Below are positions 6,886 to 33,085 of a stretch of 64,000 bases of DNA, piece after piece. Position 1 is the first letter of the stretch. The number at the start of each line of letters is the position of its first letter. A program made the translations under genes and the position numbers. A model generated the notes under the pieces. The model was not told the DNA's origin. It saw nothing but the letters and a program-made list of their open reading frames with translations, and did no database searches. The stretch is from NCBI RefSeq assembly GCF_000194155.1, contig NZ_GL877878.1:980974-1044973 (forward strand), given 5' to 3'. The stretch is from Saccharopolyspora spinosa NRRL 18395. GTDB lineage: Bacteria > Actinomycetota > Actinomycetes > Mycobacteriales > Pseudonocardiaceae.

Positions 6886-7461
6886 CTCGGCTCCTTTGGC
6901 GAGACCGCCTCGTCAGGTCGGTGGTGCCTGACCGGCGGTTGCTGGGGTGGAACTTGGCCGAGGAGGGGAGAAGGAACATTCCGACGACCACCGGTCAGCC
7001 GGGCGGACCCCGCGCTCAGCCGTGGTCTGGACCATAGGTTTTGGTTCTTGTGGCGGGGAAGAATATTCGGCCGGTTCGGCGCCCCGTTCACGCCGTCCGG
7101 ATCGGCGGCTGGTCTGCGACGATGTGCCGGATGTCCGTTTCGGGCGCATTTTTCCCAAGCCGTTTGCCATTTTTCACCCGCCGTTCATGGAACCTTCAAG
7201 CTCCGGGCCAGATTTCGGTGCGCCAGTCCGCCTGGTGGGACGGCCGGTGCGGCGGTTGACACCGGTGGCAGCCCGCTCGACGATCGCCTGGTGATGACCG
7301 CGTTCACCCGGCGCCGGCACGTCGATCTGCGCCGCGTGGCCAGCCAGGCCTGTCGCCGGTGACTGGCGCGCGAACCAGCGCGTCGAACTATCAAGTCCTA
7401 AGAGGACATCCCAATTCCCGGTTTCTCGGGTTGCCGTCGGCGGTGACCCGGGTGGAGGTGC
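6886..7461. other. Divergent intergenic region between LPMO and LLM genes
   Basis: A 576-base region with no supportable gene. It must hold promoters for both flanking genes. Besides the dre-like palindrome at 7023-7034 it has an AT-rich palindrome GAATATTC at 7061-7068 and a T-rich patch near 7150-7175. Short open frames here have no recognisable protein signature. Confidence 0.6.
7023..7034. promoter_or_regulatory. DasR-responsive element (dre)-like palindrome
   Basis: The 12-mer TGGTCTGGACCA differs at one base from the core of the dre consensus known for the GlcNAc-responsive regulator DasR (core TGGTCTAGACCA). DasR represses chitinolytic genes in streptomycetes and relatives. The site lies 138 bases upstream of the LPMO start, a sensible operator position for a chitin-active enzyme, but also on the side of the divergent LLM gene. 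Confidence 0.6.
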
Positions 7462-17856: not shown

Positions 17857-19133
17857 TCAGAACCGGATTTGCACGTTCTTTGTACGGGTGTATTCGAGGA
17901 TCCCTGAAATCCCGCCGACGCGACCGAGGCCGCTCTGCTTGTACCCACCGAAAGGCGCGTTGGCTGCGGCGGGTGCCACTCCGCCATTCACCCAGATGTT
18001 GCCGGTTTCCATCGCGCTCGCCACACGGAACGCCCGATTGAGATCGTTGGTGTGGATGTAGCCGGCGAGGCCGTACCGGGAGCTGTTCGCCAGCGCGATG
18101 GCCTCGTCCTCGTGGTCGAACCGGAGCACCGATAGCACAGGGCCGAAGACTTCTTCCTGTCCGAGCTCACTGCTGTTGTCGACGTCGCCGAAGAGGGTCG
18201 GCGCGATCATGAATCCGGGCATCTCCAGGCGCACGCCGCCGGCCAGCAGCGTCGCTCCGTCTCCCTTGGCTCGATCCACCATTCCCATGATGCGATCCGC
18301 CGCAGCCTCCGTGATGACGGGGCCCATCCCCGTCGAGCGGTCCATTGCATCGCCGACCTTGAGGTCGTTCATCAGGCCGGCCAGCCGTTCGGTGTATTCG
18401 TCGTAGATGTCGCGGTGGACGATGAAACGCGACGCCAACGTGCATGCCTGCCCGTTCGTGACCAGCAGCCAACCAAGAGCACCAGTGTCGCTGGCACCCT
18501 GCACGACCGACACCACCCCGGGCGGGATACCCGCCTCCAGGGCCAGCCGGGCGAACAAGGTCGCACTGAACGGTGCGAGCTCCGAGGGTTTGATGATGAC
18601 GCAGCATCCCGCGGCCAGCGGCGGAGCTGCGCACATTCCCAGTGATCCAACTGGGCCGTTCCAGGGGATGATGACTCCGACGACACCCACGGGCTCGACG
18701 AGCGTGTAGTCGAACGCTGCGCCAGGCTCGGTGGGCACGACCTCGCCACTGAGCTTGTCGGCCGCGCTGGCGGCGTAGTCCTTCCAGTTGAGCGAGTTAT
18801 GCACGAGAACTCCGGCGTACGAAATCGGAATCCCGCTCTCCAACGCCGGCACCGCGTGCAAATCGTCAGAGCGCTCGGTGAGGAGATTCGCGAAGCGGGT
18901 GAGCACCCGCCGACGTTCAACCGGGTCCATGCACGCCATGCGTGGAAGGCCTTTCGTGCTGCGGCCACCGCTTCGTCGACATCCGAGTCGCCGGCCAGTG
19001 GGACGGGAGCCTGAGGCGCTCCGGTCGAGGGGTTCACGTGGTCGATCGAACTCCCGGCGCTCGCGGAACGGAGCTCGCCCCCGATCACCATGTCGGCCCG
19101 CAGCAACGCTGAGACGTCACCATTGATTGTCAT
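17857..19133 (-). pseudogene. Aldehyde dehydrogenase, frameshifted and internally deleted
   Basis: The gene begins at ATG 19133 (MTINGDVSALLRADMVIGGE) and reads to FHAWRA, where one base is missing at about 18930; the next frame resumes with MDPVERRRVLTRFANLL and runs to the proper C-terminus. A second lesion lies near 18474-18480: VVQGASDTGAL is joined directly to GWLLVTNGQACTLASR. About 70 residues are gone, including the NAD-loop motif FTGS(T)xxG and the ELGGKS segment with the catalytic Glu, although the nucleophile region GQAC remains. The protein cannot be an active dehydrogenase. Two tandem operator repeats stand upstream. Confidence 0.85.
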
Positions 19134-19231
19134 TGCCGTTACGACCTTTTCCGTCGGAGAGGGTTGCTCGGACCCGGCAGACCGCCGTCCCGCAGTCGGT
19201 GAGCCGACGCTATTTGCGCTACATCGCACCT

Positions 19232-19249
19232 GTCAACACCCTCGTTGAA
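19232..19249. promoter_or_regulatory. Cluster operator, copy 1 (GTCAAC-N6-GTTGAA)
   Basis: An 18-bp inverted repeat between the divergent ALDH and thioesterase/TetR genes; one arm base differs from the perfect form. Its start is 33 bp from copy 2, about three helical turns, which would let two dimers bind one DNA face. The same motif recurs at 28104, 31750 and 31773. Confidence 0.7.
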
Positions 19250-19264
19250 ACCGCCCGGAAAGTT

Positions 19265-19282
19265 GTCAACTATGACGTTGAC
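19265..19282. promoter_or_regulatory. Cluster operator, copy 2 (GTCAAC-N6-GTTGAC)
   Basis: A perfect GTCAAC-TATGAC-GTTGAC inverted repeat, 79 bases before the thioesterase start and beyond the ALDH start. It is the best-conserved copy near the TetR gene and the likely autoregulation site. Confidence 0.75.
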
Positions 19283-19360
19283 ACGCCCATCGAGCAGCAT
19301 TTATCCTGATCCACATCGGATGGAGAACGAGATGCGCGCAGCGCGACAGGAGTGGTGTGG

Positions 19361-19969
19361 GTGGTGAGCATCGACATCCCGCCGCACCCGTGGTGGAAAC
19401 CCGGGCTGGACCTGCACCGTGGTGGAGACAGCTACGCCCACTTGTTGTCCGCGACGAGAGGCCTCCTGGATGCCGTCGCCGGAGTGGACGCACCCGAGGC
19501 TGTTTTGGCGGAAGTCGCGGGCGAGGTATCCCGGATCGCCGGACGGCTCAACTCGTACACGACATCGGACGAAAGTCAGATCGCGGGTACGCGAATGGAT
19601 CTGCCGGGTCGGGGGCATCCACTCGTGGTGCCCTACAGGACGACGTCCTGGACCAGTGTTCGAATGACGGCGGAGGTCACTTTCACGCGCATCCACCTCG
19701 GAGATGGTGGAGCTGTGCACGGCGGAGTCACCGCTCTGCTTTTCGATGAGGTTCTCGGCCGGTTTGCCAACCACGGACGTCAGCCCGCGCGAACGGCTTT
19801 CCTGCACGTGAACTACCGCCGTCTTGTGCCGCTCGACGTGGACCTCGACATCCTGACCAAGGTAGATCGTGCTGAAGGACGCAAGCTGTACATAACCGCC
19901 GAGCTCTCCCACGACGGTACAGTCCTGGCGGATGCGGAAGGGCTGTTTGTTGCAGTAAGCGCCCAGTAG
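19361..19969 (+). CDS. Hotdog-fold acyl-CoA thioesterase (PaaI-like)
   Basis: A 202-residue hotdog protein. GGAVHGGVTALLFDEVLG holds the HGG motif of the PaaI/4HBT group in which the central Asp or Glu on the helix and the HGG amides activate water; FLHVNYRRLVPLDVDLDI is the conserved beta sheet. It would hydrolyse an acyl-CoA, perhaps to free CoA from dead-end products. The N-terminal 90 residues are longer than the minimal domain. AGGAG at 19348-19352 favours GTG 19361 as start. It precedes the TetR gene by 37 bases and is probably co-transcribed from a promoter under the two operator repeats. Confidence 0.78.
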   Translation: MVSIDIPPHPWWKPGLDLHRGGDSYAHLLSATRGLLDAVAGVDAPEAVLAEVAGEVSRIAGRLNSYTTSDESQIAGTRMDLPGRGHPLVVPYRTTSWTSVRMTAEVTFTRIHLGDGGAVHGGVTALLFDEVLGRFANHGRQPARTAFLHVNYRRLVPLDVDLDILTKVDRAEGRKLYITAELSHDGTVLADAEGLFVAVSAQ

Positions 19970-20006
19970 GCCACGACACATCGAGACGACCAGAGGAAGG
20001 CTGAGA

Positions 20007-20657
20007 ATGGCAGAGCGGCGGGCGAGCCGGATTGGGGCACGGCGCAGAAACGCGCGCAAGGCGCCGTCAGACGGCTACGACGAACGCCGAGCCCGCTTGA
20101 TCGAGGCTGCCGCCAAAGTCTTCCGGGACAAGGGTTTCCAGGGCGCTAGCATCAACGATGTCGCGACCGAGTTCGGCAGTGACCGTGCGACACTCTACTA
20201 CTACGTGAGCAACAAGCACGAGCTGTTCGAAATGGTCATCGCGGATGCCGTGCAGGCGAACGTCAAGATGGCCGAGGAGGTGCGCTCCAGCGAGGCTGAC
20301 GCGGCGACGAAGCTGCGCACGATATTGGTGGAGCTCATGCGTTCCTACGACGCGAACTATCCGCATCTGTTCGTCTATCTTCAAGAGGACATGTTGCGAC
20401 TGGCAGGCGCGGACGCTGAATGGGAAGCCCGCATGCTCGACTGGAGTCGCCGCTATTTCCAGGCTGTGCGGGACGTCATCCAGCAAGGCATCGATGAGAA
20501 GCTTTTTACCTCCTCCCTGCCCGTCACGATCACGGCCCAAGGCGTGGTCGGCATGATCAGCTGGTCGCACCACTGGTACAAGCCCAGCGGCTCGGTTTCC
20601 GCCGACCAGATCGGCGAGGGCTTCGCCGACATGGTCCTACGCGGACTGGTTCGGTGA
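20007..20657 (+). CDS. TetR-family transcriptional regulator, probable cluster repressor
   Basis: A 216-residue regulator. The TetR helix-turn-helix is RLIEAAAKVFRDKGFQGASINDVA then GSDRATLYYYVSNKHELFEMV, with an extra basic arm (ERRASRIGARRRNARK) in front. The C-terminal domain (ATKLRTILVELMRSYDANYPH onward) resembles the ligand domain of fatty-acid and sterol degradation regulators such as KstR2, which respond to acyl-CoA thioesters. It is the only TetR gene in the catabolic cluster and lies next to two of the five GTCAAC-N6-GTTGAC repeats, so I infer that it binds them and is released by a pathway acyl-CoA. Confidence 0.88.
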   Translation: MAERRASRIGARRRNARKAPSDGYDERRARLIEAAAKVFRDKGFQGASINDVATEFGSDRATLYYYVSNKHELFEMVIADAVQANVKMAEEVRSSEADAATKLRTILVELMRSYDANYPHLFVYLQEDMLRLAGADAEWEARMLDWSRRYFQAVRDVIQQGIDEKLFTSSLPVTITAQGVVGMISWSHHWYKPSGSVSADQIGEGFADMVLRGLVR

Positions 20658-21099
20658 GCCTTCTTCCTCGTTCTGTGGCGAGTTCGAGCGCGAGGAGGCG
20701 TGGGGAAGTGCGCAGCGCCCGCCGGCTCGGTTCCTGATCCGCACGCGGCTCTACGGCGTCGTGGACATAGCGACACACCGCGGGCCACGCTGATGGCGAA
20801 ACCGCTTGCCACCGGTCACCAGCCTCATCGGTGCGCAGATGTGCCAGTATCGGCAGCGCTTTCCGCGGGGCTGACAGTCGATGCAACGGAGCACGGATCC
20901 GACGCCAACGGAATGACTACCGCTGCTACGTCAGGTATCGCAGTGTCAAGGTGCACAACGCAGTCGTCGGTGGCGAAAGCACCGAAGCTCATCAGAGATC
21001 CGAGGTTGATCTGGGTGGACAACGAGCTTCGCCCTTTGCGGCAGATCGCGCCACCCAGACCAGCCTAGCTCAGGATGGAGAAAACGTCGGGAATCGAGA
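20658..21099. other. Intergenic region after the TetR gene
   Basis: These 442 bases contain only short open frames with no recognised motif on either strand. There is no copy of the cluster operator and no clear terminator. It may contain debris from the truncated SDR gene that follows. Confidence 0.45.
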
Positions 21100-21426
21100 T
21101 CAGCTAGCGCCGATCTTCTGCAGGAACCCGGCATCCACGGGCAGGGAGACACCGGTAACGTACCGTGATTCTTCCGAAGCCAGCCACAAGAGGGCATTGG
21201 ACACGTCCACCGGCTCGACCCACGGGACTGGCATCGTGTTGAGGGCGGTGAACGCCTGGGCGAACTGTTCCCGGGAGGGATTGGGTTCTCCGGGGAAGAA
21301 CAGCTTGTAGACGCCCTCGTGGTGGATCATGTTGGTGTTGACGGCGGTCGGCTGGAGATTGTTGACTCGGATGTTGTGCTGGCCCAGCTTGTTCGCCAGG
21401 CGGCACAGACCGACGACCCGTCCCAT
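21100..21426 (-). pseudogene. Mycofactocin-type SDR, C-terminal half only
   Basis: About 108 residues: VGLCRLANKLGQHNIRVN, TNMIHHEGVYKLFFPG, FTALNTMPVPWVEPVDVSNA and RYVTGVSLPVDAG. This is the C-terminal half of the mycofactocin-coupled SDR family, known for the PWVEPxDxSNA segment and for holding NAD tightly. The fragment begins just after the place of the YxxxK motif, so the Rossmann fold and catalytic residues are gone. The upstream DNA (21427-21537) shows no SDR sequence in any frame. Even if translated it could not be an active oxidoreductase. Confidence 0.75.
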
Positions 21427-21537
21427 CAGAATTCTCCTCTAATTTGCGGAAACTGTCCTGTCACGAGACATGTGTGTCGCCTTGTCAGCGAGTCGATTAA
21501 CTGTGTTGCCAAGGATGTCTTTCATACCGATCCGGAC

Positions 21538-23340
21538 TCAGGGCGCGGCGTCGAATGGCAAGCGGCTGGGCATGATTCCTTCGAGTTCAGCCTTGATCTG
21601 AAGCGCGAGGAATCGCGAGTGGAGGCGGCAGTCCATCAGGGCGCCGCCCATGAACCACAGACCCGGTTGCGCCGTGCGCTTCCACATGTTCCTCATCGTG
21701 TAGTCCTCATCGAATCCCCAGATCGGTCCGACGCGGTCGGCGATCTCGTCGCCCAGCAACCCCCGGACTCCTTCCTGGAGGTTGCGGTACCCGGTTGCCA
21801 TTACGGCGAGATCGGCATCGATTCGCTGATCGTCTGCCAGCACCAATCCCGTCTCGTCGAACGTGGCGATGTCACGCGCCTGGACGAGGTTGATCTTTCG
21901 GTCGGCGATAAGGTCAGAACACCCAACGTTGATGTAGTAACCGCCGCCTGTGCGCAGGTACTTCATGTGGAAGCCCGTGTTGTCCTCGCCGTAGTCGGTC
22001 TCGAACCCGACGGCGGCGAGTTTGTCGAGTAGCTCCTGGTCCAAGACCCGTGTCCGTTTGGTTAGCCACTGGTAGGTGTCTTTGAGCACCGGATACGGGA
22101 TGGCTGCTGTGATGAGGTCAATGTCCTCGGCAGATGGCCCCTCCGAGTACAGCGAGTAGACCAAGGTCCCGCTGGGCACGAGGCTGACCACGCAGGTGGA
22201 GCCGCGCTGGACGATCGACACCGACTCTGCGCCGTTGGAATAGAGGTCCTGCGCCACGTCGTGCCCGCTATTGCCAGTACCGAACACGATCGCTTTCCGC
22301 CCGGCGTAATCCGTTCCACTGCGGAAATCCGATGAGTGGATGATCTCGCCGCGAAACTTCTCCAGCCCTTTCATGGCAGGCATGTTCGGCACCCCGCTCA
22401 CGCCCCCGGTCGCAAGCACGAGATGGGGCACTGTGAGCTCTCGGGTGCTGCCGTCGGCTCGCCTTACCGCCACCGACCAGGTCCGTGCCCGCTCGTCGTA
22501 AGTGGCGTCATGCAATTCGGTGCCAGTCCAGACGTTGAGTTCCATAACGTCGGCATAGAACTCGAGCCAACCGGCTAGTTTGTCCTTCGGCACGAACGTC
22601 GGCCAGGTCGGTGGGAACGGTAGGTAGGGCAGGCTGTTCGCCCATATCTCGTTGTGCAAGGTCAGGGAGTGGTAACGCTGCCGCCAGTTGTCGCCGACTC
22701 TCTCATTGCGCTCGATCAGCAAGGCATCCACACCGATCGCCTTCAACCGTGCAGCCACACTGAGTCCGGCCTGCCCGGCACCGACGACCAACACCTCGGG
22801 GTCACGTTCGTCGAAACGTTGTTCCTTGATCCGTGCGTCAAGCCAGTTCTCGCTGGCAAAGCTATGTGAGAAGTCAACCCCACTCGGGCGCTGGTCACCG
22901 ATCCTCTCGTCGAACCCGTGGATTTGCTGCAGCGTGGTGAGCAGGATCCACGCAAGCGGGTTCCCCGGCGACGCAGGATCGTAGACCAGCCTGACGAACC
23001 CGGTTCCCGCCCCGATTTCGGTATCGAAGTCGAAGTAGGCCTCGATGACCGACCGGGCGGACCGGCGCACGAGGCGGGGCGCGGCGCGGTCAGTCGAGAG
23101 ACGCAGACTCCGTGGCTTCACGTCGTCCAGGGTGGCCTTCAAAGCCTTCTCGATTTCGTCCCGTCCCGTGAAGGTTTTGTAGGACCAGGTGAACGCCAGG
23201 ATGTCTTTCCAGTGACCGTCGGGCTCGATGAAGGCGGCGATGGCCGCTGGGTCACCGTCTTCGACGGATTCCCCGAACCGTTTGAGCCAGTGGGCGAACA
23301 CCTCTTCCACGTTGCTCGGGTCGACCTTCGGCTGCATCAC
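21538..23340 (-). CDS. Flavin-containing monooxygenase with N-terminal SnoaL/NTF2-like domain
   Basis: A 600-residue two-part protein. Residues 1-150 form an NTF2/SnoaL-like fold (EEVFAHWLKRFGESVEDGDP, HWKDILAFTWSYKTFTGRDEI). The rest is a class B flavin monooxygenase: FAD loop VVGAGQAGLSVAARLKAIG, NADPH loop IVFGTGNSGHDVA, and AVMATGYRNLQ near the C-terminus. Such enzymes oxygenate ketones to esters or lactones (Baeyer-Villiger) or oxidise heteroatoms, using NADPH and O2. In a CoA-degradation cluster a ring- or chain-opening oxygenation is plausible. It is 93 bases downstream of an acyl-CoA dehydrogenase gene in the same direction and probably ends that operon. Confidence 0.85.
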   Translation of the reverse strand: MMQPKVDPSNVEEVFAHWLKRFGESVEDGDPAAIAAFIEPDGHWKDILAFTWSYKTFTGRDEIEKALKATLDDVKPRSLRLSTDRAAPRLVRRSARSVIEAYFDFDTEIGAGTGFVRLVYDPASPGNPLAWILLTTLQQIHGFDERIGDQRPSGVDFSHSFASENWLDARIKEQRFDERDPEVLVVGAGQAGLSVAARLKAIGVDALLIERNERVGDNWRQRYHSLTLHNEIWANSLPYLPFPPTWPTFVPKDKLAGWLEFYADVMELNVWTGTELHDATYDERARTWSVAVRRADGSTRELTVPHLVLATGGVSGVPNMPAMKGLEKFRGEIIHSSDFRSGTDYAGRKAIVFGTGNSGHDVAQDLYSNGAESVSIVQRGSTCVVSLVPSGTLVYSLYSEGPSAEDIDLITAAIPYPVLKDTYQWLTKRTRVLDQELLDKLAAVGFETDYGEDNTGFHMKYLRTGGGYYINVGCSDLIADRKINLVQARDIATFDETGLVLADDQRIDADLAVMATGYRNLQEGVRGLLGDEIADRVGPIWGFDEDYTMRNMWKRTAQPGLWFMGGALMDCRLHSRFLALQIKAELEGIMPSRLPFDAAP

Positions 23341-23433
23341 GTTTTCCTTCCTTCACGGACGGTTCCGCGGATATTTCGGACAGAAATGAGCCGGCCTTGC
23401 CGACTCTTGGCGACCGAGCTCACTTCCGGCGGG

Positions 23434-24609
23434 TCAGTACGACCGCGGCAGGCCCAGTTCCTGCTCGGCCACGAAGTTGAGGATCATCTCCTCCGGAATG
23501 GGAGCGATCCGGGTCAAGCGCACTTCGCGAAAAAGACGCTCCACTGTGTACTCGCTGGCGTAGCCGTAGCCGCCATGTGTCTGAACTGCCCTGTCGGCGG
23601 CGAAAAAGCCAGCCCGGCCGGCGAGGAACTTGGCCGTGTTGGCCTGAAGCCCGCACGGTTGGCGGGTGTCGTATCGGCGGGCGGCGTCGAGCATGACGTG
23701 GTTCGCAGCCAGGAGCTGCATGTAGGCGTCGGCCAGCGGGTGCGCGATGCCCTGGCGTTGACCGATCGGCTGCCCGAAGGTCACGCGCTCGCCGGCATAG
23801 CGGCTGGCGCGCTCGACCGCGGCAATACCGATTCCGATCGCCTCGGCCGCGACGAGTACGCGTTCGGGGTTGAGACCGTCCAGCAGGGCGTGGAATCCAC
23901 GTCCTTCCTCGCCGACGAGGTTCTTCGAGGGAACGGGAAGCCCGTCGAAGGCCACCTCGTAGCTGGCGACCGCGTTTCGGCCCATCTTCTTGATGGGGGA
24001 GGCCTCGACGTACTCGCGGTCGAGGTCGACGACGAACAGCGACAGTCCGTCGATCGGTCGTTTCGTCTCCTCGGTAGGCCGGGTGCGAGCGAGCACCAGG
24101 GCGGCGTCGGAAAAGCCAGCCTTGGTCATCCACACCTTCCTGCCGGTGATGCGCCAGTCGTTGCCGTCGCGCACTGCACGGGTGGACACCTGTCCGGTGT
24201 CGATTCCCGCGTTCGGCTCGGTGACGCCGAATGCGATGTGGATTTCGCCCACCGCGACCTGGGGTAGGTAGCGCTGCTTCAGTTCCTCAGTTCCGTGCAT
24301 GACGAGAGGGTGGAACCCGAACATCGACAGATGTATCCCGGAGCAGCCGTTGAGACCGGCACCGCTGGCGGCGACGGTTTGGAGCGCGAGTGCGGCGTCT
24401 TCCAGACTACCGCCGCCCCCGCCATACTCCTCCGGAATCAGCATCCCGACGATGCCCATTCCGGCCATCGTCTTGAAGAACTCCTCGGGAAAGCAGTGCT
24501 CCTCCTCGTGCCTGCTCCAGTAGGCGTCGTCGAAGTGAGAGCAGGCATCCGCGACCGTGCGCAGGAACATCTTCTGGTCGTCGGTGAGTGAGTCGTTCCA
24601 GTGCTTCAT
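23434..24609 (-). CDS. Acyl-CoA dehydrogenase
   Basis: A 391-residue acyl-CoA dehydrogenase with the usual order of domains: IPEEYGGGGGSLEDAA, FGVTEPNAGIDTGQ (FAD/substrate loop), VWMTKAGFSDAALV, and C-terminal VQTHGGYGYASEYTVERLFREVRL with EMILNFVAEQELG. The NFVAEQELGLP ending is shared with FadE-type enzymes of short or branched substrates. It oxidises an acyl-CoA to the 2-enoyl-CoA with electrons passed to ETF. Its ATG overlaps the stop of the phosphate acyltransferase gene by four bases (ATGA), so it is translated with the reverse operon that starts near 31.7 kb. Confidence 0.88.
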   Translation of the reverse strand: MKHWNDSLTDDQKMFLRTVADACSHFDDAYWSRHEEEHCFPEEFFKTMAGMGIVGMLIPEEYGGGGGSLEDAALALQTVAASGAGLNGCSGIHLSMFGFHPLVMHGTEELKQRYLPQVAVGEIHIAFGVTEPNAGIDTGQVSTRAVRDGNDWRITGRKVWMTKAGFSDAALVLARTRPTEETKRPIDGLSLFVVDLDREYVEASPIKKMGRNAVASYEVAFDGLPVPSKNLVGEEGRGFHALLDGLNPERVLVAAEAIGIGIAAVERASRYAGERVTFGQPIGQRQGIAHPLADAYMQLLAANHVMLDAARRYDTRQPCGLQANTAKFLAGRAGFFAADRAVQTHGGYGYASEYTVERLFREVRLTRIAPIPEEMILNFVAEQELGLPRSY

Positions 24610-25547
24610 TCTCTGTCACATCCGTTCGGGCTGGTCGCGGCCGACCGTGTCAGGTGGCTGGCGAGGTAGAAGCTGTGGCGGCGGGTGGCGACCGTGTCGC
24701 CACGGCTGGGCAGCGCGACCGGCACGCCTGCACCGAGCACGACGCCCATAGCGGGGGCGTGATGGCCGACCAGCGCCTTCGCCAAGAGGTTGCCGGAATT
24801 GAGGTCAGGTGCCAGCAGGATGTCCGCCTGTCCCGCAACTTCGCCGGCGAGGTTCTTGTTCACCGCCGATTCCGGGAACAGCGCGGCGTCCAGCGGCATA
24901 GGGCCGTCGACATCGACCGCGCCGAGCTTCCCACGTTCGGCCATGAGACGTAGTTCCGCCGCATCGAGGGTTGCAGGGATGCGGGTACTCACCTTCTCGA
25001 TGGCGCTTAGGACGGCCAGTCGAGGTCGCGCGGACGACAGGACCGAGTACAACTGGAGGGCGTTCTCCACGATCGCTGCCTTCGTCGCGAGGTCTGGCTC
25101 GATGTTGACCCCCGCGTCGGTCAGGAGAACCGTCCGGCCACCAAACTGTTCCAGCTGCATGACGTATATGTGTGACGCGCACGCCGACCTTCCGGGCAGG
25201 CGTTGGCGAAGGAGGCCACCGAGCAGGTCCGCCGTGGGAATTGATCCTTTGACGACGAACTCCGCATCCCCCGTGCGGATCAGATCCACAGCGCGATCCA
25301 CCGCGGTGTCCGAATCTCCAGAGTCATGGATCCGGACAGCGGACACGTCGACTTCCGCCTCGGCTAGCAGGTTCTTGATACGGGCTCGGTCACCGGTGAG
25401 ATCTAGTACCGCACCTTCGGCCACGACCTGGGCGACTGCCGCAATGGCCTCCACCGAGTGCGGGGCTACGACAACGCACCGAGCCAAGGGGCGTGCGGTG
25501 AGCCCGGCGATGATCGATTCGAAGGGAGGCAACCCAGGCTCACTCAT
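24606..25547 (-). CDS. Phosphate acetyl/butyryltransferase family protein
   Basis: A 313-residue PTA/PTB-family enzyme (PF01515). AVLDLTGDRARIKNLLAEAE, EFVVKGSIPTADLLGGLLR, ILLAPDLNSGNLLAKAL and GVVLGAGVPVALPSRGDT are the phosphate-binding segments of phosphotransbutyrylase. It would transfer an acyl group between CoA and phosphate. No acyl kinase gene is adjacent, so it may instead serve to recycle CoA or phosphate inside this pathway. Both ends overlap neighbours by four bases (enoyl-CoA hydratase before, acyl-CoA dehydrogenase after), which shows tight co-translation. Confidence 0.85.
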   Translation of the reverse strand: MSEPGLPPFESIIAGLTARPLARCVVVAPHSVEAIAAVAQVVAEGAVLDLTGDRARIKNLLAEAEVDVSAVRIHDSGDSDTAVDRAVDLIRTGDAEFVVKGSIPTADLLGGLLRQRLPGRSACASHIYVMQLEQFGGRTVLLTDAGVNIEPDLATKAAIVENALQLYSVLSSARPRLAVLSAIEKVSTRIPATLDAAELRLMAERGKLGAVDVDGPMPLDAALFPESAVNKNLAGEVAGQADILLAPDLNSGNLLAKALVGHHAPAMGVVLGAGVPVALPSRGDTVATRRHSFYLASHLTRSAATSPNGCDRE

Positions 25548-26308
25548 CGCGTCCTCGCCACGAATTCCGACACGCCGTCGTGGAACGACGGCTGGGCGAA
25601 CACCAGCGCACGCATGACGCTTCCCATCAGCAGGCCCTCGTCATACGAGGAGGTCTGCGCACTGCGGACGGTGGCCTTGCCGAGGGTGAGAGCGTGGCGC
25701 GGGCGCGAACCCATCCTTTTGACGAACTCGGCCACCTCGTCCTCGAATTCATCGTCGACGAAGACTTCAGTGACCAGGCCGAGCCTTCTGGCCTCGGTCG
25801 CGTCGATCTGAGTCCCGGTGGCGGAGAGCGCGAGAGTGGCCCGCGCGCCGATGGCGCGCACGAGTGGTGGGACGATCACCATCGGAAACGCACCGATGTT
25901 GATCTCAGGGCAGCCGAATTTGGCGGAGTGGGGTGCCAGCACGAGATCGCAAGCGGCCGCCAGACCGCAGCCGCCCCCGAGCGCCTTCCCCTCCACTACG
26001 GCCAGCACGAGACCGGGCACGCTCTCCAGTACCTGGAACAGGACGCGGAAGGACTCGGTAGCCTCATATTCGGACATGGCGTCGGTAGTCAGACTCGCGT
26101 GGAACTGCGCCAGATCGCCACCGGCGCTGAAGAAGCCACCTTCCCCGCGCAATACCACCACCGATGCCGCATGCACCTCACTCGTGCGCAGTGCCGTGGT
26201 CAACGCGTCGATCATGGCGTCGCTCAACGGATTGCGTCGCGCGGAGTCCCGGAGCATCACGTTCGCAACGTTGCCTTCGACCGTGACATCGACAAGCCCG
26301 TCACTCAT
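25544..26308 (-). CDS. Enoyl-CoA hydratase/isomerase family protein
   Basis: A 254-residue crotonase. The oxyanion-hole segments are [11 protein letters not shown] and [19 protein letters not shown], and [13 protein letters not shown] is the usual third motif with one of the catalytic acidic positions (Glu in CPEINIG). It hydrates an enoyl-CoA or isomerises a double bond. The start overlaps the AtuA gene end by eight bases and its end overlaps the acyltransferase gene. In this operon it is the hydration step after one of the acyl-CoA dehydrogenases. Confidence 0.88.
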
Positions 26309-27677
26309 CGGAGGTCACCGCCTCGACGCGGACCAGATCGTCCATCAACTCGCGCGGCACAAGTGAGGTCCACTCGCGCAGCACCTGGCTGACAACCGAA
26401 CCTCCGCGCAGTCCGCCCACGAACGGGTAGGAGTTGATCGCCAGCGGAGGCAGCAGCTTGGCGAACGCCCGTGCTGGAGCCTCCGTCTCGGTGTGCACCG
26501 CGATCCGCAGGACGACCTCGTTGATATCGCGCGCGGCTGGGACGGCGGCGACGCCGCCCAGAAGCGAGTTGACGCCGATGTACTCCACGTGCAGGTCGGT
26601 GACCGGGATCTGCTCGATCTCCAGCTGCTTGCGGACGATGTCCGCCGCACGTGCTGCTTTCTCCAGAGCGTATGGGGCGGAGAAGGGCAACGAGATCGAC
26701 GCCACGTAACCATCCGGGATCCCGGCGATGAGCTTCAGCGTCTCCGGCGCCGGCGCACCCTTGACGCCGGTTACCTGGACACGATCTGGCCCGATATCGG
26801 TCAGCTCCACCGAGGAGAAATCCGCGGTGACGTCCGGGGTGAGGTAACGCGCTGGATCATGAATCTCGTAGTACAGCTGCTCTTTGAGAGTGTCACGGCT
26901 GATCCGGCCGCCGGTGCCCTCGGGTTTGGTGATCACGACGTCCCGGCCGGTCACTTCGGCCACCGGGTAACCGATGTCCTCCAACCGCTCGACGTTCCAC
27001 CAGTCACCGCTGAAGTTTCCACCTGCGCCCTGGCCGCAGCATTCGAGCAGGTGCCCCACGAGGATCCCCCGGGCGACGTCGTCGCAGACCGCCGGGTTCA
27101 CGTCTCCGGTGTGGATGAGCGGAGCGAGAAACAGGGCCGTGTCGGTGACCCGACCGGTCACCACGGCATCCGGGTTCTCGGCCAGAGCCTGGAGCAGCGG
27201 GTCGGCGCCAAGGTAGACGTTGGCGAACAGGGGCTTCGTAGGCATGTCGGCGAATGCGTGACCGGTGTCCAGGTCACGCAGATCGACCCCGTCGGCGTGC
27301 CAATCGCCGAGGCGCTCCAGAACGTCGTCGCCGCTGACCGCCATCACCTTCGCGCCGGTGTGGCCACGCTTCGCGCATTCCCGGGCCACCGCCCGCGCGG
27401 CTGCCAGTGGGTTGAGGCCACCACCATTTGACAGCAAGGCCGCACCTCGGTCGGCGGCCAAGGGATGCAGGTCGGCGAACATGGCCGGCAGGTCCTTGGC
27501 GTAGCCAAGTTCCGGGTTCTTGGCACGGTCCTTCGCAAGGATGGCCAGTGTCAGCTCCGCAAGTGCGTCGAAGGCCATGTAGTCGACCTCTGTGGTTTCC
27601 AGCGCACGCCGGGCGGGGCGGGCGCTGTCGCCGTAGAACGCCTGGCCCGCGGCAAGGACGGTCGTACGCGTCGTCAT
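26301..27677 (-). CDS. AtuA-family protein (DUF1446)
   Basis: A 458-residue member of the acyclic terpene utilisation AtuA/DUF1446 family (PF07287). [60 protein letters not shown] and [23 protein letters not shown] are the conserved glycine-rich blocks. AtuA is needed for citronellol/geranyl-CoA degradation in Pseudomonas but its reaction is not firmly known; it may be a hydratase or work with its small partner. The next gene encodes the C-terminal-like partner and overlaps by four bases, so this is the split form of the protein. Its presence suggests a branched or terpenoid-like acyl-CoA. Confidence 0.85.
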
Positions 27678-28093
27678 CGGCGTGTCTCCTTCGGTCCGTA
27701 GTAAGTCGGCGAGGTCCGTGCGAGATCGTCTGGTACGCCGGTGATCGGCATGAGCAGGAGGGCCGCGGCCATCGACTTGCCGAGGTTGTCGCCCCGCAGG
27801 CTGCGTGAACCACCACCGCCGAGAGCCTCGTGGAGAACGAACTTCACCCCCCAGACATTGGGGAGCAGGTAGCGGTCCACCTTGCCTGACGCCAGTGGGG
27901 CCATGTGAGCGGCGACTCGCTCGACCGTGAGCCTGGGTTCCACGACGGCGTACAGCTCGGCCGTTGGAAGAAAGACCGTGATGTCGCAGACATCGTTCTT
28001 GTCGCCCGAGCGTGCCTGCGCCAGCCGGTGCAGGGGAATTCCGGAGTCAACGCCTGTGTTGAAAGCTGCCATGTCTGGAACTGTACGAAGCAT
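27674..28093 (-). CDS. AtuA C-terminal-domain-like small protein
   Basis: About 139 residues if ATG 28093 is used, 132 from ATG 28072; the codon at 28123 is TTG and lies across an operator repeat, so it is unlikely. [20 protein letters not shown] is the conserved ARSGDKG-like signature of the domain that is fused to AtuA in many proteins. [18 protein letters not shown] and [16 protein letters not shown] are the other conserved blocks. The stop overlaps the AtuA start by four bases, so the pair likely assembles. Function follows AtuA. An operator copy just upstream suggests an internal promoter here. Confidence 0.75.
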
Positions 28094-28103
28094 CAGGTCA
28101 ACC

Positions 28104-28121
28104 GTCAACGGGTGTGTTGAC
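28104..28121. promoter_or_regulatory. Cluster operator, copy 3 (GTCAAC-N6-GTTGAC)
   Basis: A perfect GTCAAC-GGGTGT-GTTGAC inverted repeat covering the last codons of the DUF35 gene and ending 11 bases before the likely start of the AtuA-partner gene. It implies a second regulated promoter inside the long reverse operon. Another GTCAAC half-site lies just beside it (28097-28102). Confidence 0.7.
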
Positions 28122-28488
28122 AAAAGGTGATTGTTCGTCCGGCAGCGGTATCGGTCACCTCGAACGCCACTTCTTCACCTATAGCCGGAATCCGGGCACA
28201 TTCTGCGGCGAGCATCGGAATCCGTGCGTCCGGCGCTCCCATCGGAGTGATCAGCGCCGCCACATACGGCGTCCGGAGGCCCTCGACGGTGTCGACGGCC
28301 TGGACCACCTCGGTCCAGGTATGGACGTGTCCCACATTTCCGACCTCCAGCCAGATCACGTCTGACCCCCCGCACCGGCGGCACACCGGCCGCGGGTACC
28401 AATTCCATGTGGCGCAACGTGTGCAGCGAGGTAACCGGACGACACCGTCGTGCAGACCTTCGACCCATTCGCGCAACGCATCGCTCAT
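28105..28488 (-). CDS. Zn-ribbon OB-fold protein (DUF35, ChsH2-like)
   Basis: A 127-residue protein. The rubredoxin-like zinc ribbon is CTRCATWNWYPRPVCRRCGG (CxxC...CxxC), followed by an OB fold (GHVHTWTEVVQAVD, YVAALITPMG, EVAFEVTDT). DUF35 proteins pair with thiolase-like partners; in steroid side-chain degradation the DUF35 domain of ChsH2 holds the aldolase Ltp2. Here the thiolase-like gene ends four bases inside this one, so the two are co-translated and very likely form a complex. The OB fold would help bind the CoA substrate. Confidence 0.87.
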   Translation of the reverse strand: MSDALREWVEGLHDGVVRLPRCTRCATWNWYPRPVCRRCGGSDVIWLEVGNVGHVHTWTEVVQAVDTVEGLRTPYVAALITPMGAPDARIPMLAAECARIPAIGEEVAFEVTDTAAGRTITFCQHTR

Positions 28489-29669
28489 TCCCGGTTCTCC
28501 TGTCGTTCGAGGACGAGCGAGGTGTACTGACGCCCCGGGCCAGCGCCGACGAAAGCCAGTGCCGCGTCGCTCACCTGCCGCTGCCCAGCCTCATGGCGGA
28601 TCTGCTCCACCGCCTCGACCAGGTGATTGGCTCCGAGGAGGTAACCGTGAGCGAGCAGGCCTCCGTGGGTGTTCACCGGATGTCGCCCGCCTACCTCCAA
28701 CGCCCTGTCCGCGACATGACCGAGCGCTTGCCCCGGTTGGCAGAACCCAGCGCTTTCCAGCTGAAGCACCGTCGCAGGGGTGAAGCAGTCGTATAACTCG
28801 ACCACGTCGATATCTTGTGGTTTTAGACCGGCTTTGGTGAACGTACGGTCGCTCGCATCCCGGGCAGCAGCCAGTTCGGGCAGCCCGCTTTGGCTGTAGA
28901 ACGAGGCATCGTCGTACTCGTCCTGAGCCCACGCCCAGGCGCGCACTGCGGCGAGACCACCGCGGGCGGAGACCGCCGCCGCGTTGGATACGACGACCGC
29001 GGCCGCGCCGTCGCTGAGCAGGCAGCAATCGGCGCGCCGCAACGGCGTCGCGATCCAGGGGCTCCCGTCGTAGTCCGCTCTAGTCAGCGGCTTGGTCTGC
29101 TGGGCCGTTGGATGGAGCCGACCGTTGGCGCGAGCGGCCATCGCGACGGCGGAGAGAAGGTCAGTGACCTCGTCGTCTCGCAGGCCGTAGGTGTAGGCAT
29201 ACCGGCGGATCGCGGTCGCGAAGTACAGCGGGGGACCGGCGAACCCGGCAGGCCGCTCGATCGCCGACTTCGCGTCCATCGCCGCGTGGTAGTCGTTTGC
29301 ACCCGATCGCCGGCTACCCCAGTCGACCCCGAAGAAGGACACCACGTGATCGGCAACCCCGGCCTCCACCACGGCCGCAGCCACCCCGACGGCTTGCAGG
29401 ATGCCCGCGCCGGTCGGGCTCGAGGTAGCGGTCATCGCGAGTCCGCTCATCCCGGTGGCGGCGGCCACGTCGGCCACTTTCGCCATGCCAGGCGTGATCG
29501 ACGCTTCGGTGACCACTCCGCCCACCCGCGCCGCATCGATGTCTGCGTCCCGCAGCGCAGCGCAGACCGCCTCGGCGATCATGTCGAGCGCGGTGCGGCC
29601 GGACTGCCGGAGGGGCGCTACCGACCCGATTCCCGAGATGACGGCTGTGCGTGACCTCGCGCCGCTCAC
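28485..29669 (-). CDS. Thiolase-like lipid-transfer protein, probable Ltp2-type acyl-CoA aldolase
   Basis: A 394-residue thiolase fold starting at GTG 29669 (GTGA overlap with the cyclase stop). The nucleophilic Cys region of true thiolases is replaced by TATSSPTGAGILQ, with no Cys, so Claisen cleavage is unlikely. VVELYDCFTPATVLQLE carries the Tyr of the Ltp2 active site (YDxFT), and NTHGGLLAHGYLLGANH is the GGxxxxGHPxGA-like segment with the His. Ltp2 with a DUF35 partner cleaves a beta-hydroxyacyl-CoA by retro-aldol reaction, and a DUF35 gene follows at once. I infer a retro-aldolase of this cluster. Confidence 0.83.
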   Translation of the reverse strand: MSGARSRTAVISGIGSVAPLRQSGRTALDMIAEAVCAALRDADIDAARVGGVVTEASITPGMAKVADVAAATGMSGLAMTATSSPTGAGILQAVGVAAAVVEAGVADHVVSFFGVDWGSRRSGANDYHAAMDAKSAIERPAGFAGPPLYFATAIRRYAYTYGLRDDEVTDLLSAVAMAARANGRLHPTAQQTKPLTRADYDGSPWIATPLRRADCCLLSDGAAAVVVSNAAAVSARGGLAAVRAWAWAQDEYDDASFYSQSGLPELAAARDASDRTFTKAGLKPQDIDVVELYDCFTPATVLQLESAGFCQPGQALGHVADRALEVGGRHPVNTHGGLLAHGYLLGANHLVEAVEQIRHEAGQRQVSDAALAFVGAGPGRQYTSLVLERQENRE

Positions 29670-30517
29670 AGCACGGCCACCGGTGCCACTGGGCTGCCCA
29701 CGCCACCAACGATCGGCAGTGGTGACACGACTAGAAGGAACTCGTGCCGCCCCGATTCGGCGAGTTTCTCCAAATCGAGCAACTCCATGAAATGCACTCC
29801 TCGATCGCGCATCAACGCGATATGCAGGGGAACTTGAACCTCGTCGACTCCGGACGGAAATGGCTCCACCGCAATGTTGTCCGCGCCGACTAGGCTCACG
29901 CCCTGTTCGTCGAGCCATTCGGCGCATTCGGCACCGAGGCCGGGCCACGTGTCGGTGCTGGCGTGGCCCTCGCGCCAGCGGCGCAACCAGCCGGAACGGA
30001 TCAGCAACGCGTCGCCGGAACGCAGTGTGATCCCAACCGAGTTGAGCGCCACGGTCAGCTCGTCGATTCCGAAGACATCGCTGCCGGAGTTCGCGAAATC
30101 GAGGAAGACCCCACGCGTGACAATCGGGCCGGTCTTCTCGATGCCGCACCTACGGGCGCCGCGGCTGGTCACCTCGTTCGCAGAGAAGCCGTTCCACATC
30201 AGACCGTCCTGCCACACGTGCGACAGCGCGTCGAGATGCGTCGTGCCGTGGCAGGCCACAAACAGGTAATCGTCGCTGAAGCCGAAACCGCCCGTCTCGG
30301 CCTTCCCCGCAGCGTAATCTCCCCCGTCGCGAACCATCATGTGCAAGGGTGGCGTGCGCATGCCTGCAAATGGAACGGACTTCTCCGAGATCGGAATCGC
30401 CAGCGTTAGGGCGTTACCGTCTCGGACCGTCGCCACACCCCGCAACGTCGCCTCAGCGTCGATGCGGTTGAGTGCTCCCCGTTCGTCTTCCTGGCCCCAT
30501 GTTCCCCAGGAATTCAT
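29666..30517 (-). CDS. Cyclase-family metal-dependent hydrolase
   Basis: A 283-residue member of the cyclase/kynurenine formamidase-like family (PF04199). The metal-binding motif is ACHGTTHLDALSHVW (HxxxHxDxxxH) and DALLIRSGWLRRW with GADNIAVEP complete the fold. Family members hydrolyse amides, lactones or enol esters in the cytoplasm. Next to a possible Baeyer-Villiger enzyme it could open a lactone; that is inference. Its stop overlaps the start of the thiolase-like gene and it begins 24 bases after the CoA-transferase gene. Confidence 0.82.
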   Translation of the reverse strand: MNSWGTWGQEDERGALNRIDAEATLRGVATVRDGNALTLAIPISEKSVPFAGMRTPPLHMMVRDGGDYAAGKAETGGFGFSDDYLFVACHGTTHLDALSHVWQDGLMWNGFSANEVTSRGARRCGIEKTGPIVTRGVFLDFANSGSDVFGIDELTVALNSVGITLRSGDALLIRSGWLRRWREGHASTDTWPGLGAECAEWLDEQGVSLVGADNIAVEPFPSGVDEVQVPLHIALMRDRGVHFMELLDLEKLAESGRHEFLLVVSPLPIVGGVGSPVAPVAVL

Positions 30518-30541
30518 GACAGTTTTCTCCGATCTGTTGAC

Positions 30542-31681
30542 TCAGAAGATCTCGCGCAGCGGGCGTTCCCAGCCGGCGCTATTGCCTTCACGACGGACCA
30601 CGCCACGCTCGGTGACCACCGCAGTCACGAACCGGCCGGGAACCGAGACAGCCTCCACCGTCGCGCGCAAGGTCAAAGCGCCATCGCGATCCCTGGACGG
30701 AAGAGCCACGACACATTGGCCACAGCGACTTAGCGCTGCGCCCCGGGCGAGATCTGGAGCTCCGCCCAAACCGGAGACCAGCCTTGCGCCGGCCGTCTCG
30801 GAGTTAACGTTGCCCTCGGTGTCTACGTTCAGGGCACCCAGCACGGTGAACAGCCGGTCGTGCCGGCCCAGCCAAGCCGGATCATGGATCACAGTGGACG
30901 GAGAGAGCCGCACCCGTGGGTGTGTGGCGGCCCAGGCGACAAGGTCGCTGTCGCCCACCACTGACATGGCCTGGATCAAGGCATCGGGCAGGAGTGCACC
31001 GGCCGCATCGAGCCGCCTGGCCGCGTCGGTGAGCGCGCCCGTGACCAGAGTCAAGTCGTCTCTCTCCGCAAGGATCTCCGCCAATGCCTCGGCGACCCTG
31101 CCGACGCCAAGCGCCAGGTGCGCGCGGTCCGGTAGCAGTCCAGCGACATAGCCGGCTATCGCCGCGCTCACCGGATCGGGTTGGCCTGATAGTGCGGCGA
31201 ACGACGTGGCGGGTCCCGGCTGGACGCGGACGATGTCGTCGGTGCGCTCCGTCCAGGCACTGCCGGCCACAACTGGCGCGGTGGGGTGCTCTTCGATCAC
31301 CACTCGGCGCGCCCGGTTCACAGCCAGCTGCAAGTAGCCGTCGATCGCCACGAGATGACGTCGCCCGGCCTCGTCCTGCGCTCCGGTCGCGACCACCACG
31401 CCGTCCAGGTCGAGTCCACCGTCGAGCAGCAGACCGCAGATTTCGCGGTATGACAGACGCTCGTACGCCACCTCGCCCACAGCCCGCAGCCCCCGGCCAG
31501 GCACGAAGGAGGCGAACGACACGTGTGGAGATTCCACGACGGACCGAGGCAGAGGGGTGCGCCGCACACCCAAAAGCAGCCGCACCGGATCATCCGCGGT
31601 CGGCGGCCACCGGTGTAGGTAGCGCTCGATTCCAGCGGTCGGCTCCACTGCGCCCTCGGCGCACAGCACGACGCGTGTCAT
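30542..31681 (-). CDS. Acetyl-CoA hydrolase/CoA-transferase family protein
   Basis: A 379-residue CoA-transferase of the 4-hydroxybutyrate CoA-transferase type. AHLALGVGRVAEALAEILAE, ALNVDTEGNVNSETAGARL and GLGGAPDLARGAAL are the conserved CoA-binding and glutamate-loop segments. It would move CoA from acetyl-CoA or succinyl-CoA to a free acid of the pathway. ATG 31681 (MTRVVLCAEGAVEP) is preferred to an earlier frame start at 31726 because a purine-rich GGGGTAG precedes it. It heads the long reverse operon; two operator repeats lie 69-109 bases upstream. Confidence 0.8.
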   Translation of the reverse strand: MTRVVLCAEGAVEPTAGIERYLHRWPPTADDPVRLLLGVRRTPLPRSVVESPHVSFASFVPGRGLRAVGEVAYERLSYREICGLLLDGGLDLDGVVVATGAQDEAGRRHLVAIDGYLQLAVNRARRVVIEEHPTAPVVAGSAWTERTDDIVRVQPGPATSFAALSGQPDPVSAAIAGYVAGLLPDRAHLALGVGRVAEALAEILAERDDLTLVTGALTDAARRLDAAGALLPDALIQAMSVVGDSDLVAWAATHPRVRLSPSTVIHDPAWLGRHDRLFTVLGALNVDTEGNVNSETAGARLVSGLGGAPDLARGAALSRCGQCVVALPSRDRDGALTLRATVEAVSVPGRFVTAVVTERGVVRREGNSAGWERPLREIF

Positions 31682-31749
31682 GACTGCTACCCCGTTCCGA
31701 CGAGGGACGTTCTTGTCGAAGCCCAAGGTAGAGCGGCTAACAAACCGCC

Positions 31750-31767
31750 GTCAACAGGTGTGTTGAA
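31750..31767. promoter_or_regulatory. Cluster operator, copy 4 (GTCAAC-N6-GTTGAA)
   Basis: GTCAAC-AGGTGT-GTTGAA, one arm base off the perfect repeat, in the gap between the divergent CoA-transferase and PaaK-like genes. Its start is 23 bp from copy 5, about two helical turns. The AGGTGT centre resembles the GGGTGT of copy 3. Confidence 0.7.
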
Positions 31768-31772
31768 GAGTT

Positions 31773-31790
31773 TTCAACAAGAGTGTTGAC
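31773..31790. promoter_or_regulatory. Cluster operator, copy 5 (TTCAAC-N6-GTTGAC)
   Basis: TTCAAC-AAGAGT-GTTGAC, one arm base off the perfect repeat. With copy 4 it forms a double operator that can control both the reverse operon and the forward ligase-transporter run. Confidence 0.7.
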
Positions 31791-31885
31791 TGTCGTTTTG
31801 TGAGGTGCCTAACATGCACGCGACGGTTCACATCGCAACGGGGCGGCCGTGTCCACGGCGCCACCAGCCAGGAGGTTTCGCGGAT

Positions 31886-33085
31886 ATGGCTCACTCGAAT
31901 GAGGACACCATGTGCAGGGCCGTGGAGATGGCGCGGCTCGCCCTCACCACATCCGCATACGCCTCGGAGTGGCACCGTTCCGCGGCAGAGGTGACGGCAC
32001 AGACCTGGGAAACGATCCCGTTCCTGGACAAGGAGCGCCTGATCGCCTCGGTCACCGATGAGGATCCCTTCGGTGGTCGCCTTTCGGTCTCTTGCTCGGA
32101 GCTGGCGTGGATCTTCGCGGCCCCCGGCCCGGTCTACATGCCCTACACGGCCGGAGACATGGACCGAGTCGCAGCCGCATACGGCGCGGCACTCGGTTCA
32201 TGCGGCCTGGGAGACGAGGACATCGTCGACCAGACGCTGCTCTACAACTGGGTGATCGCAGCCAGCATGGTCGACCGTGGCCTGCGCTCGCTGGGCTGTG
32301 CCGTGGTTCCCGGCGGCCCAGGAGGTACCGAACAGCACGCCGACCACATCCGCCGCTCTGGAATCACGGGGATCGTGGCTATGCCCTCGTTTCTCGAGCA
32401 CCTGCTGGAAGTCCTGGGCGACCGGCCGCATCGGCTGAGGAAAGCGGTCATCATGGGCGAGCTACGGGACGCCGACGCTAAGACCCGAATCGAGGAGCGT
32501 TACGGCGTGTGGGCGCGCGAGTTCTACGGAGTCGGCGATGTCGGTGCCGTGGCCTACGAATGTGCACTGGGCCAGGGCATGCACCTGCGTCGAGATCTGC
32601 TGATTGAGTTCGTCGACCCAGCCACCGGAGGCATCAAGGAGCCGGCAAAGGGCGACCCGGCGGAGATCGTGGTCACCGATTTCGCTCGTAGGGCGATGCC
32701 GATCATCCGGCTGCGAAGCGGCGACCTGATCGATGAGCTGATCACGGACCCGTGCGCCTGCGGCAATCCGGCTCCCCGCATCCCGCGGATCATCGGACGT
32801 GCCAACGACATCACGAAGGTACGTGGCATGTTCATTATCCCGCAGCTTGTCACACGGACGCTGGGCCAGTTCGGTATCGAAGACGAACACTGCATCGTCA
32901 TCGACCGCACCGAAGGACGCGACCTCATCGAGGTCCTCATCGTGGGGGCTCATCGCGGCAACGTCCCGGTGGTCGCCGCTGCGGTGTCCGACGCCCTGCG
33001 GATCCGCTGCGACGTCCGCTTCGTCGACTCACTGCCATCCGGTTCCGGGCTTCTTCGCGACCGCAGAGCCTTCCAAAACCAATGA
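31886..33085 (+). CDS. PaaK-like adenylate-forming protein with degenerate P-loop
   Basis: A 399-residue relative of phenylacetate-CoA ligase. AREFYGVGDVGAVAYECALGQGM is the A5-type motif, DPCACGNPAPRIPRIIGRAND the cysteine-containing motif and hinge, and KVRGMFIIPQLVTRTL the start of the C-terminal domain. The glycine-rich ATP loop (SSGTTGxP) is replaced by AAPGPVYMPYTAGD, so normal adenylation may be impaired. AGGAGG lies ten bases before ATG 31886, which decides the start against the earlier in-frame ATG at 31805. It is first in the forward run and lies downstream of the double operator. Confidence 0.75.
   Translation: MAHSNEDTMCRAVEMARLALTTSAYASEWHRSAAEVTAQTWETIPFLDKERLIASVTDEDPFGGRLSVSCSELAWIFAAPGPVYMPYTAGDMDRVAAAYGAALGSCGLGDEDIVDQTLLYNWVIAASMVDRGLRSLGCAVVPGGPGGTEQHADHIRRSGITGIVAMPSFLEHLLEVLGDRPHRLRKAVIMGELRDADAKTRIEERYGVWAREFYGVGDVGAVAYECALGQGMHLRRDLLIEFVDPATGGIKEPAKGDPAEIVVTDFARRAMPIIRLRSGDLIDELITDPCACGNPAPRIPRIIGRANDITKVRGMFIIPQLVTRTLGQFGIEDEHCIVIDRTEGRDLIEVLIVGAHRGNVPVVAAAVSDALRIRCDVRFVDSLPSGSGLLRDRRAFQNQ

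Follow-up and report, generated by a model that had tools for sequence, protein, structure and literature searches.

A −35-embedding palindrome as candidate operator of a TetR-linked catabolic cluster in Saccharopolyspora spinosa

TetR-type repressors of catabolic genes have been described in mycobacteria and rhodococci, where KstR and KstR2 bind palindromic operators in promoter regions, those of their own genes among them; the accessible parts of the two reports give AnCAAGnnCTTGnT as the KstR2 motif (PMC3068626) and TnnAACnnGTTnnA as the KstR motif (PMC3068626; PMC1995591). In the available part of another report, the ClpC2 operator reads CGTCAAC-n5-GTTGACG (PMC10030653). Here, we analyzed a stretch of 64,000 nucleotides from S. 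spinosa NRRL 18395 (the window; contig NZ_GL877878.1, positions 980,974 to 1,044,973), in which an 18-bp palindrome, GTCAAC-N6-GTTGAC, recurs in a catabolic gene cluster that encodes a TetR-family regulator. As a sequence feature, this palindrome is almost certainly a genuine conserved operator, and its linkage to related TetR genes indicates that the local TetR very probably binds it. The novel point is that the outward GTTGAC half-site appears to double as the −35 box of a promoter.

The likeness to KstR2 extends to the regulator itself, as the KstR2 structure 4w97 was among the nearest solved structures to the cluster TetR (E = 1.7e-15). However, the KstR and KstR2 motifs are 14 bp long with a 2-base centre, whereas the palindrome of the cluster has 18 bp and a 6-base centre; an earlier note on this DNA had called the motif unlike KstR2-type sites, and the comparison with the motifs in the accessible text of both papers confirmed this (PMC3068626; PMC1995591). 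The ClpC2 autorepressor operator, as the available text describes it, has near-identical half-sites, repeated copies, and overlap with the −35/−10 region, but its spacer is 5 bases instead of 6, and the protein is not a TetR and represses its own gene (PMC10030653). Two further candidates were set aside: the LcpR rubber regulator, as the LcpRB operator of Streptomyces coelicolor differs in the part of the report available (PMC8235351), and PheR of Sphingobium, which is IclR-type and hence irrelevant (PMC13273656). Among the matches listed in a full-text literature search with motif and TetR terms, whose scope left out most subscription papers, no recognizable description of the motif as a TetR operator was found.

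Palindromes in the cluster and in the genome

Six copies of the palindrome, numbered O1 to O6, were found in the cluster (Table 1), and each of the three control regions has an operator pair, with start-to-start distances of 33, 58, and 23 bp. The earlier note had listed five copies, at 19232, 19265, 28104, 31750, and 31773; all were located there, and the pattern scan agreed that the copies at 19265 and 28104 are perfect and the other three carry one mismatch. Its statement that no copy occurs elsewhere was wrong, as a one-mismatch copy at 28046 (O3) and a perfect copy at 50255 are also present in the window. If the AtuA-ferredoxin-like gene starts at ATG 28072, O3 probably lies approximately 10 bases within its coding sequence, not upstream of it. 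The 3′ end of the OB/zinc-ribbon gene extends into O4.

When up to two mismatches were allowed, 12 matches were obtained in the window, compared with a mean of 2.30 and a maximum of 5 in 100 shuffles. A whole-genome scan for unrelated copies (8,581,920 bases, 22 contigs), which had been set beforehand, gave a divided result: perfect copies number three in the genome, all within the window, but of the 29 places found when one mismatch was allowed, 22 lie outside it, and a reversed control pattern gave 16 places. The additional perfect copy, at 50255-50272, falls within an open reading frame of 403 amino acids (49778-50989, − strand) that looks transposase-like by eye. This copy is probably a chance occurrence, and binding of the repressor there could still be conceived.

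The relatives' loci described below (L028-L031 and L091-L118) provided 86 sites, 83 of them unique, from which a matrix was built with the window excluded. When the 29 candidates of the S. spinosa genome were ranked with this matrix, O1 to O6 took ranks 1 to 6, and the transposase site took rank 7. This matrix, trained on relatives, separates the cluster sites from the one-mismatch places elsewhere in the genome. The chance of six cluster sites on top in a random ranking is 1 in 475,020, a figure to be read with the fact that matrix and candidates share a consensus. In the relatives, the outermost arm base was G in 84% and T in 9% of cases, and it is this base that is altered in each of the four cluster sites with one mismatch.

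Linkage of the palindrome to TetR relatives

The cluster TetR matched 318 plasmid records at E ≤ 1e-5, and TetR segments from 11 of the 20 listed (H1-H6, H8, H10, H12, H14, and H17) were examined. The closest plasmid TetR among the matches listed was that of Rhodococcus ruber YC-YT1 (NZ_CP023712.1, 64.8% identity), whose segment contains five palindromes, perfect or with one mismatch, each of them between genes. The palindrome was also found on plasmids pR8L1 of Rhodococcus sp. 008, pSFD01 of Sphingopyxis sp. FD7, and pSH1 of Sphingobium xenophagum, with TetRs of 36-40% identity. In these four segments (L028-L031), 13 sites were found when one mismatch was allowed; 12 of them lie between genes, whereas intergenic sequence makes up 4-27% of the total, and the remaining one extends over the 3′ end of a TetR gene. 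A plasmid search with the two sphingomonad TetRs (E ≤ 1e-20) returned the same four records only, with the operator in 4/4, and a second Sphingopyxis TetR segment (L124) has a perfect copy at 7234, between divergent genes.

Arm and spacer were examined in the window cluster together with the four plasmid segments. GTCAAC was the commonest palindromic 6-mer arm (10 occurrences; next, 2), and a spacer of 6 gave 10 perfect copies, or 19 sites when one mismatch was allowed, whereas none of the other spacers between 0 and 12 gave more than one site. A wide set of 29 further TetR-homologue loci, of 13-20 kb each and 557 kb in total, was taken from this genome, its family, and its class. At spacer 6, 35 perfect copies were counted, and 73 sites when one mismatch was allowed, compared with no perfect copy and at most six sites for each of the 12 other spacers. 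At least one site was present in 23 of the 29 loci, whereas approximately 1.5 sites would be expected by chance in 557 kb from the rate in the S. spinosa genome outside the cluster (23 per 8.58 Mb). A site lay within 1.5 kb of the TetR gene in 16 of 44 loci (a count that includes the window and in which L046 overlaps L056), whereas 40 permuted arms gave 0.225 such loci on average and never more than 3. The same palindrome thus stands beside related TetR genes in Rhodococcus, two sphingomonads, and further relatives, and it is therefore most likely the docking site of this TetR group. The proposal of the earlier note that the motif is the regulon operator of the local TetR is supported by this recurrence with a spacer of exactly 6.

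These counts also bear on the explanation that the repeats arose by chance around ordinary −35 boxes. Half of the motif is the −35 consensus TTGAC, the perfect copy at 50255 lies in coding sequence, and 22 one-mismatch places are scattered elsewhere in the genome, all of which would suit this explanation. However, the perfect copies in TetR loci all have spacer 6, and neither shuffles nor permuted arms reproduce the pattern, so that we regard chance as having next to no likelihood.

Family-level TetR relatives had at first seemed to count against the linkage, with a nearby or upstream site in one of 15 loci, or in two of 15 by a second count. This was dropped as counter-evidence, since wider flanks of the same relatives gave a site in 12 of 15. 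Several of these relatives appear, by eye, to occupy an operon position downstream of a ligase-like gene.

Predicted promoters, ClpC2-type palindromes, and proposed regulation

TTGAC, the −35 consensus, is contained in the half-site GTTGAC. A TANNNT sequence lies 18, 18, 17, 18, and 18 bp from O1, O2, O4, O5, and O6, respectively, each time towards the adjoining gene, where it would serve as the −10 box (Table 1). The same arrangement recurs in the relatives: in 168 arms of 84 sites, TANNNT was found 25 times at a spacing of 17, 12 times at 18, and 3 times at 16, and at most 3 times at every other offset. Where relatives' sites carried one mismatch, the −10 stood beside the intact arm in 12 of 42 and beside the mismatched arm in 1 of 42. 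The outward arms of O1, O5, and O6 are perfect, presumably because the outward arm doubles as the −35 box. The distance from O4 to the start codon is 32 bp (28104 to ATG 28072), and the operator at this gene on the R. ruber plasmid lies equally far from its start codon (12028 to 11996). In both, the predicted −10 of the AtuA-ferredoxin-like gene ends 7 bases ahead of the ATG, which suggests that its transcripts are probably leaderless.

We propose that a TetR dimer would bind each 18-bp palindrome. At five of the six sites, the gene-facing half-site GTTGAC is predicted to act also as −35 box (TTGACN) in the promoter of that gene, and a bound repressor would therefore block RNA polymerase directly; from this geometry, we infer repression by occlusion of the −35 box. 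In the divergent regions, each promoter would have one operator, with O1 serving ALDH (aldehyde dehydrogenase), O2 the thioesterase-TetR operon, O5 the CoA (coenzyme A)-transferase gene, and O6 the PaaK-like ligase gene. The internal AtuA promoter would have one operator at its −35 box and a second just past the start. TetR would regulate its own operon, and a pathway intermediate, perhaps an acyl-CoA or another CoA ester, would release it from the operators. The ligand is a guess from gene content, a CoA ester being named because of the enzymes that the cluster encodes.

The same sites could also be bound by TetR as an activator or dual regulator. Some TetR-family proteins act as activators, and the operators are located at promoters. 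However, activators more commonly bind upstream of the −35 box, whereas here the half-site coincides with it at a spacing of 17-18, which is the position expected for occlusion. We therefore consider activation unlikely and retain repression by TetR.

Another candidate is a ClpC2-type or related small helix-turn-helix (HTH) regulator, which would bind the sites in place of TetR. The ClpC2 operator in the available part of its report, CGTCAAC-n5-GTTGACG, is nearly identical (PMC10030653). Tandem copies with spacer 6 occurred in 18 of 386 family genomes, 17 of them other genomes (the reversed control pattern occurred in 9), and for 16 of these 17, the 3-kb locus with the pair also encodes a small HTH protein that is unrelated to TetR and similar to one of three query proteins. 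One of these three queries has a Clp_N domain, and two matched nothing in Pfam. S. spinosa itself encodes a ClpC2-like protein with an HTH segment similar to them. However, exactly two perfect spacer-5 palindromes occur in its genome, 28 bp apart and both at this ClpC2-like gene, whose 3-kb locus has no spacer-6 site, whereas the catabolic cluster sites have spacer 6 only. The three HTH proteins, used as queries, had no match at E ≤ 1e-4 in the window, so that no clpC2-like gene adjoins the cluster by this search, or in loci L001-L056, to which the search extended. In addition, the paired copies at the 16 HTH loci are 27-29 bp apart (Table 1), compared with 23, 33, and 58 bp in the cluster. 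Binding by such a protein in place of TetR is therefore improbable. In the HTH-type n6 arms, TANNNT was found at a spacing of 17 in 7 of 64 and at 18 in 11 of 64. Convergence of two unrelated repressor families on a palindrome made from the −35 box thus seems likely.

Taken broadly, the findings incline us, with some reserve, to the view that a distinct TetR subfamily, distributed over Rhodococcus and sphingomonad plasmids and related genomes, controls different CoA-ester catabolic clusters through one −35-embedding operator and that the unrelated ClpC2-type repressors have converged on nearly the same palindrome because any repressor reading TTGAC in both arms would automatically block the promoter. 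The following points weigh against TetR control by this route. Several loci of the wide set come from the same or related genomes and are non-independent samples. Six of its 29 loci have no site, namely L091, L096, and L104 (all three from the class search), L116, L118 (a relative in genome G007), and L119 (a 37% paralog in this genome), and L094, L097, L110, and L111 are among the loci whose only sites bear a mismatch. Seven plasmid TetRs of at most 34% identity and an AtuA-bearing R. gordoniae segment lack any site with at most one mismatch. On a tree of 43 TetRs, operator presence is scattered, with 11 changes, a number as low in 58 of 500 shuffles; L030 was counted as present, with its sites 6-10 kb away. 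This non-significant test was not used as support, and since the operator does not form one clade, linkage to the TetR group is claimed and not a single origin. No TANNNT was found at promoter spacing from O3, and the −10 pattern is loose, being present on at least one side in just 35 of the 84 relatives' sites. Finally, unrelated ClpC2-type HTH proteins use nearly the same palindrome.

With the palindrome, catabolic repressors of an apparently undescribed group can be searched for through their operator, and their regulons can be found and delimited, including those of pathways with unknown substrates. It also suggests a compact design for promoters, the operator coinciding with the −35 box, and is an example of two unrelated repressor families apparently converging on nearly the same palindrome.

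The gene cluster, its plasmid counterpart, and a TetR paralog

The genes of the cluster were identified at family level with Pfam and NCBIfam, the NCBIfam matches being mostly under curated cut-offs. Leftward from O1 lie genes for a short-chain dehydrogenase/reductase, a phosphotransferase-like protein, an acyl-CoA dehydrogenase, and ALDH, and rightward from O2 those for the thioesterase and TetR. The run leftward from O5 comprises CoA-transferase, a cyclase-family protein, thiolase (C-terminal domain), the zinc-ribbon/OB protein, AtuA-ferredoxin-like protein, AtuA, enoyl-CoA hydratase, phosphate acyltransferase, acyl-CoA dehydrogenase, and flavin monooxygenase; O3 and O4 are placed inside it, before the AtuA pair. 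The PaaK-like ligase gene lies rightward from O6. From these assignments, the cluster reads as one for CoA-ester degradation.

Table 1. Operators, predicted −10 boxes, and genes considered in this study. Coordinates are those of the window unless a contig or locus is named; −10 boxes are predicted from sequence.
Feature	Position	Strand	Remarks
Operator O1, GTCAACACCCTCGTTGAA	19232..19249	−	One mismatch; intact arm towards ALDH; predicted −35 (TTGACA-18-TAGCGT, − strand)
Operator O2, GTCAACTATGACGTTGAC	19265..19282	+	Perfect; predicted −35 of thioesterase-TetR promoter (TTGACA-18-TATCCT)
Operator O3, GTCAACGCCTGTGTTGAA	28046..28063	unassigned	One mismatch; no −10 at promoter spacing
Operator O4, GTCAACGGGTGTGTTGAC	28104..28121	−	Perfect; predicted −35 of internal AtuA promoter
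Operator O5, GTCAACAGGTGTGTTGAA	31750..31767	−	One mismatch; predicted −35 of CoA-transferase-side promoter (TTGACG-18-TACCTT)
Operator O6, TTCAACAAGAGTGTTGAC	31773..31790	+	One mismatch; predicted −35 of PaaK-like-side promoter (TTGACT-18-TAACAT)
Predicted −10, TAGCGT	19207..19212	−	ALDH-side promoter
Predicted −10, TATCCT	19302..19307	+	Thioesterase-TetR promoter
Predicted −10, TACAGT	28080..28085	−	Internal AtuA promoter; ATG 28072 7 bases downstream
Predicted −10, TACCTT	31725..31730	−	CoA-transferase-side promoter
Predicted −10, TAACAT	31810..31815	+	PaaK-like-side promoter
TetR-family regulator	20007..20657	+	216 amino acids; TetR_N and TetR_C_24; proposed repressor
Thioesterase, 4HBT superfamily	19352..19969	+	First gene of presumed TetR operon; Pfam 3.7e-8
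ALDH gene	17857..19133	−	Frame change near 18,915-18,930 relative to R. ruber ALDH
AtuA-ferredoxin-like and AtuA genes	26301..28072	−	Behind O3/O4; Pfam; start by comparison with R. ruber plasmid segment L028
Acetyl-CoA hydrolase/transferase-like gene	30542..31681	−	Behind O5; start inferred at ATG 31681
PaaK-like acyl-CoA ligase	31814..33085	+	Behind O6; start uncertain; NCBIfam matches under cut-offs
ClpC2-like HTH gene	contig 1, 2715048-2715343		HTH segment 43% over 58 amino acids
Tandem n6 pairs near small HTH protein	L057-L068, L070-L072, L074		Copies 27-29 bp apart

The TetR sequence matched PF00440 (TetR_N) at its N terminus (1.3e-10; 41.3 bits, compared with a cut-off of 24) and PF17932 (TetR_C_24) at its C terminus (4.1e-21). 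Its best sequence match among solved structures was 3vpr (E = 3.8e-23), which we take to be PfmR of Thermus and whose operator presumably differs from GTCAAC-N6-GTTGAC. A single-sequence structure model was all helical and poor, with a mean pLDDT (predicted local distance difference test) of 48.4 and a pTM (predicted template modeling score) of 0.36.

The R. ruber plasmid segment matched 15 of 20 window proteins at E ≤ 1e-8, with identities of 67% for AtuA, 53% for CoA-transferase, and 63% for the MFS protein. The shared genes include those for AtuA, AtuA-ferredoxin, enoyl-CoA hydratase, phosphate acyltransferase, and thiolase, together with homologues of the OB protein, cyclase, CoA-transferase, thioesterase, and MFS protein. 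At the same threshold, no match was found to the short-chain dehydrogenase/reductase, phosphotransferase, flavin monooxygenase, PaaK-like, or AMP-binding query; the last was in the wrong frame (19 stops), and its missing match in relatives is uninformative. No study on the regulation of this plasmid cluster was among the matches listed in the literature. Gene order is rearranged on the plasmid, and its ALDH is annotated as a single 523-amino acid gene, whereas a stretch preceding the GQ-C motif appears, by eye, to be absent from the S. spinosa ALDH gene, which probably is a pseudogene or contains a sequence error.

Apart from the window, a single place in the genome matched TetR at E ≤ 1e-40, a paralog of 37% identity on contig 5 (119498-120151). 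A scan of a collection of genome contigs with the TetR query gave one irrelevant match (26%). No operator was found within the 19.9 kb surrounding the paralog (L013, L119). Upstream of the paralog and of its relative in G007, an inverted repeat, CACACA-N7/8-TGTGTG, was observed.

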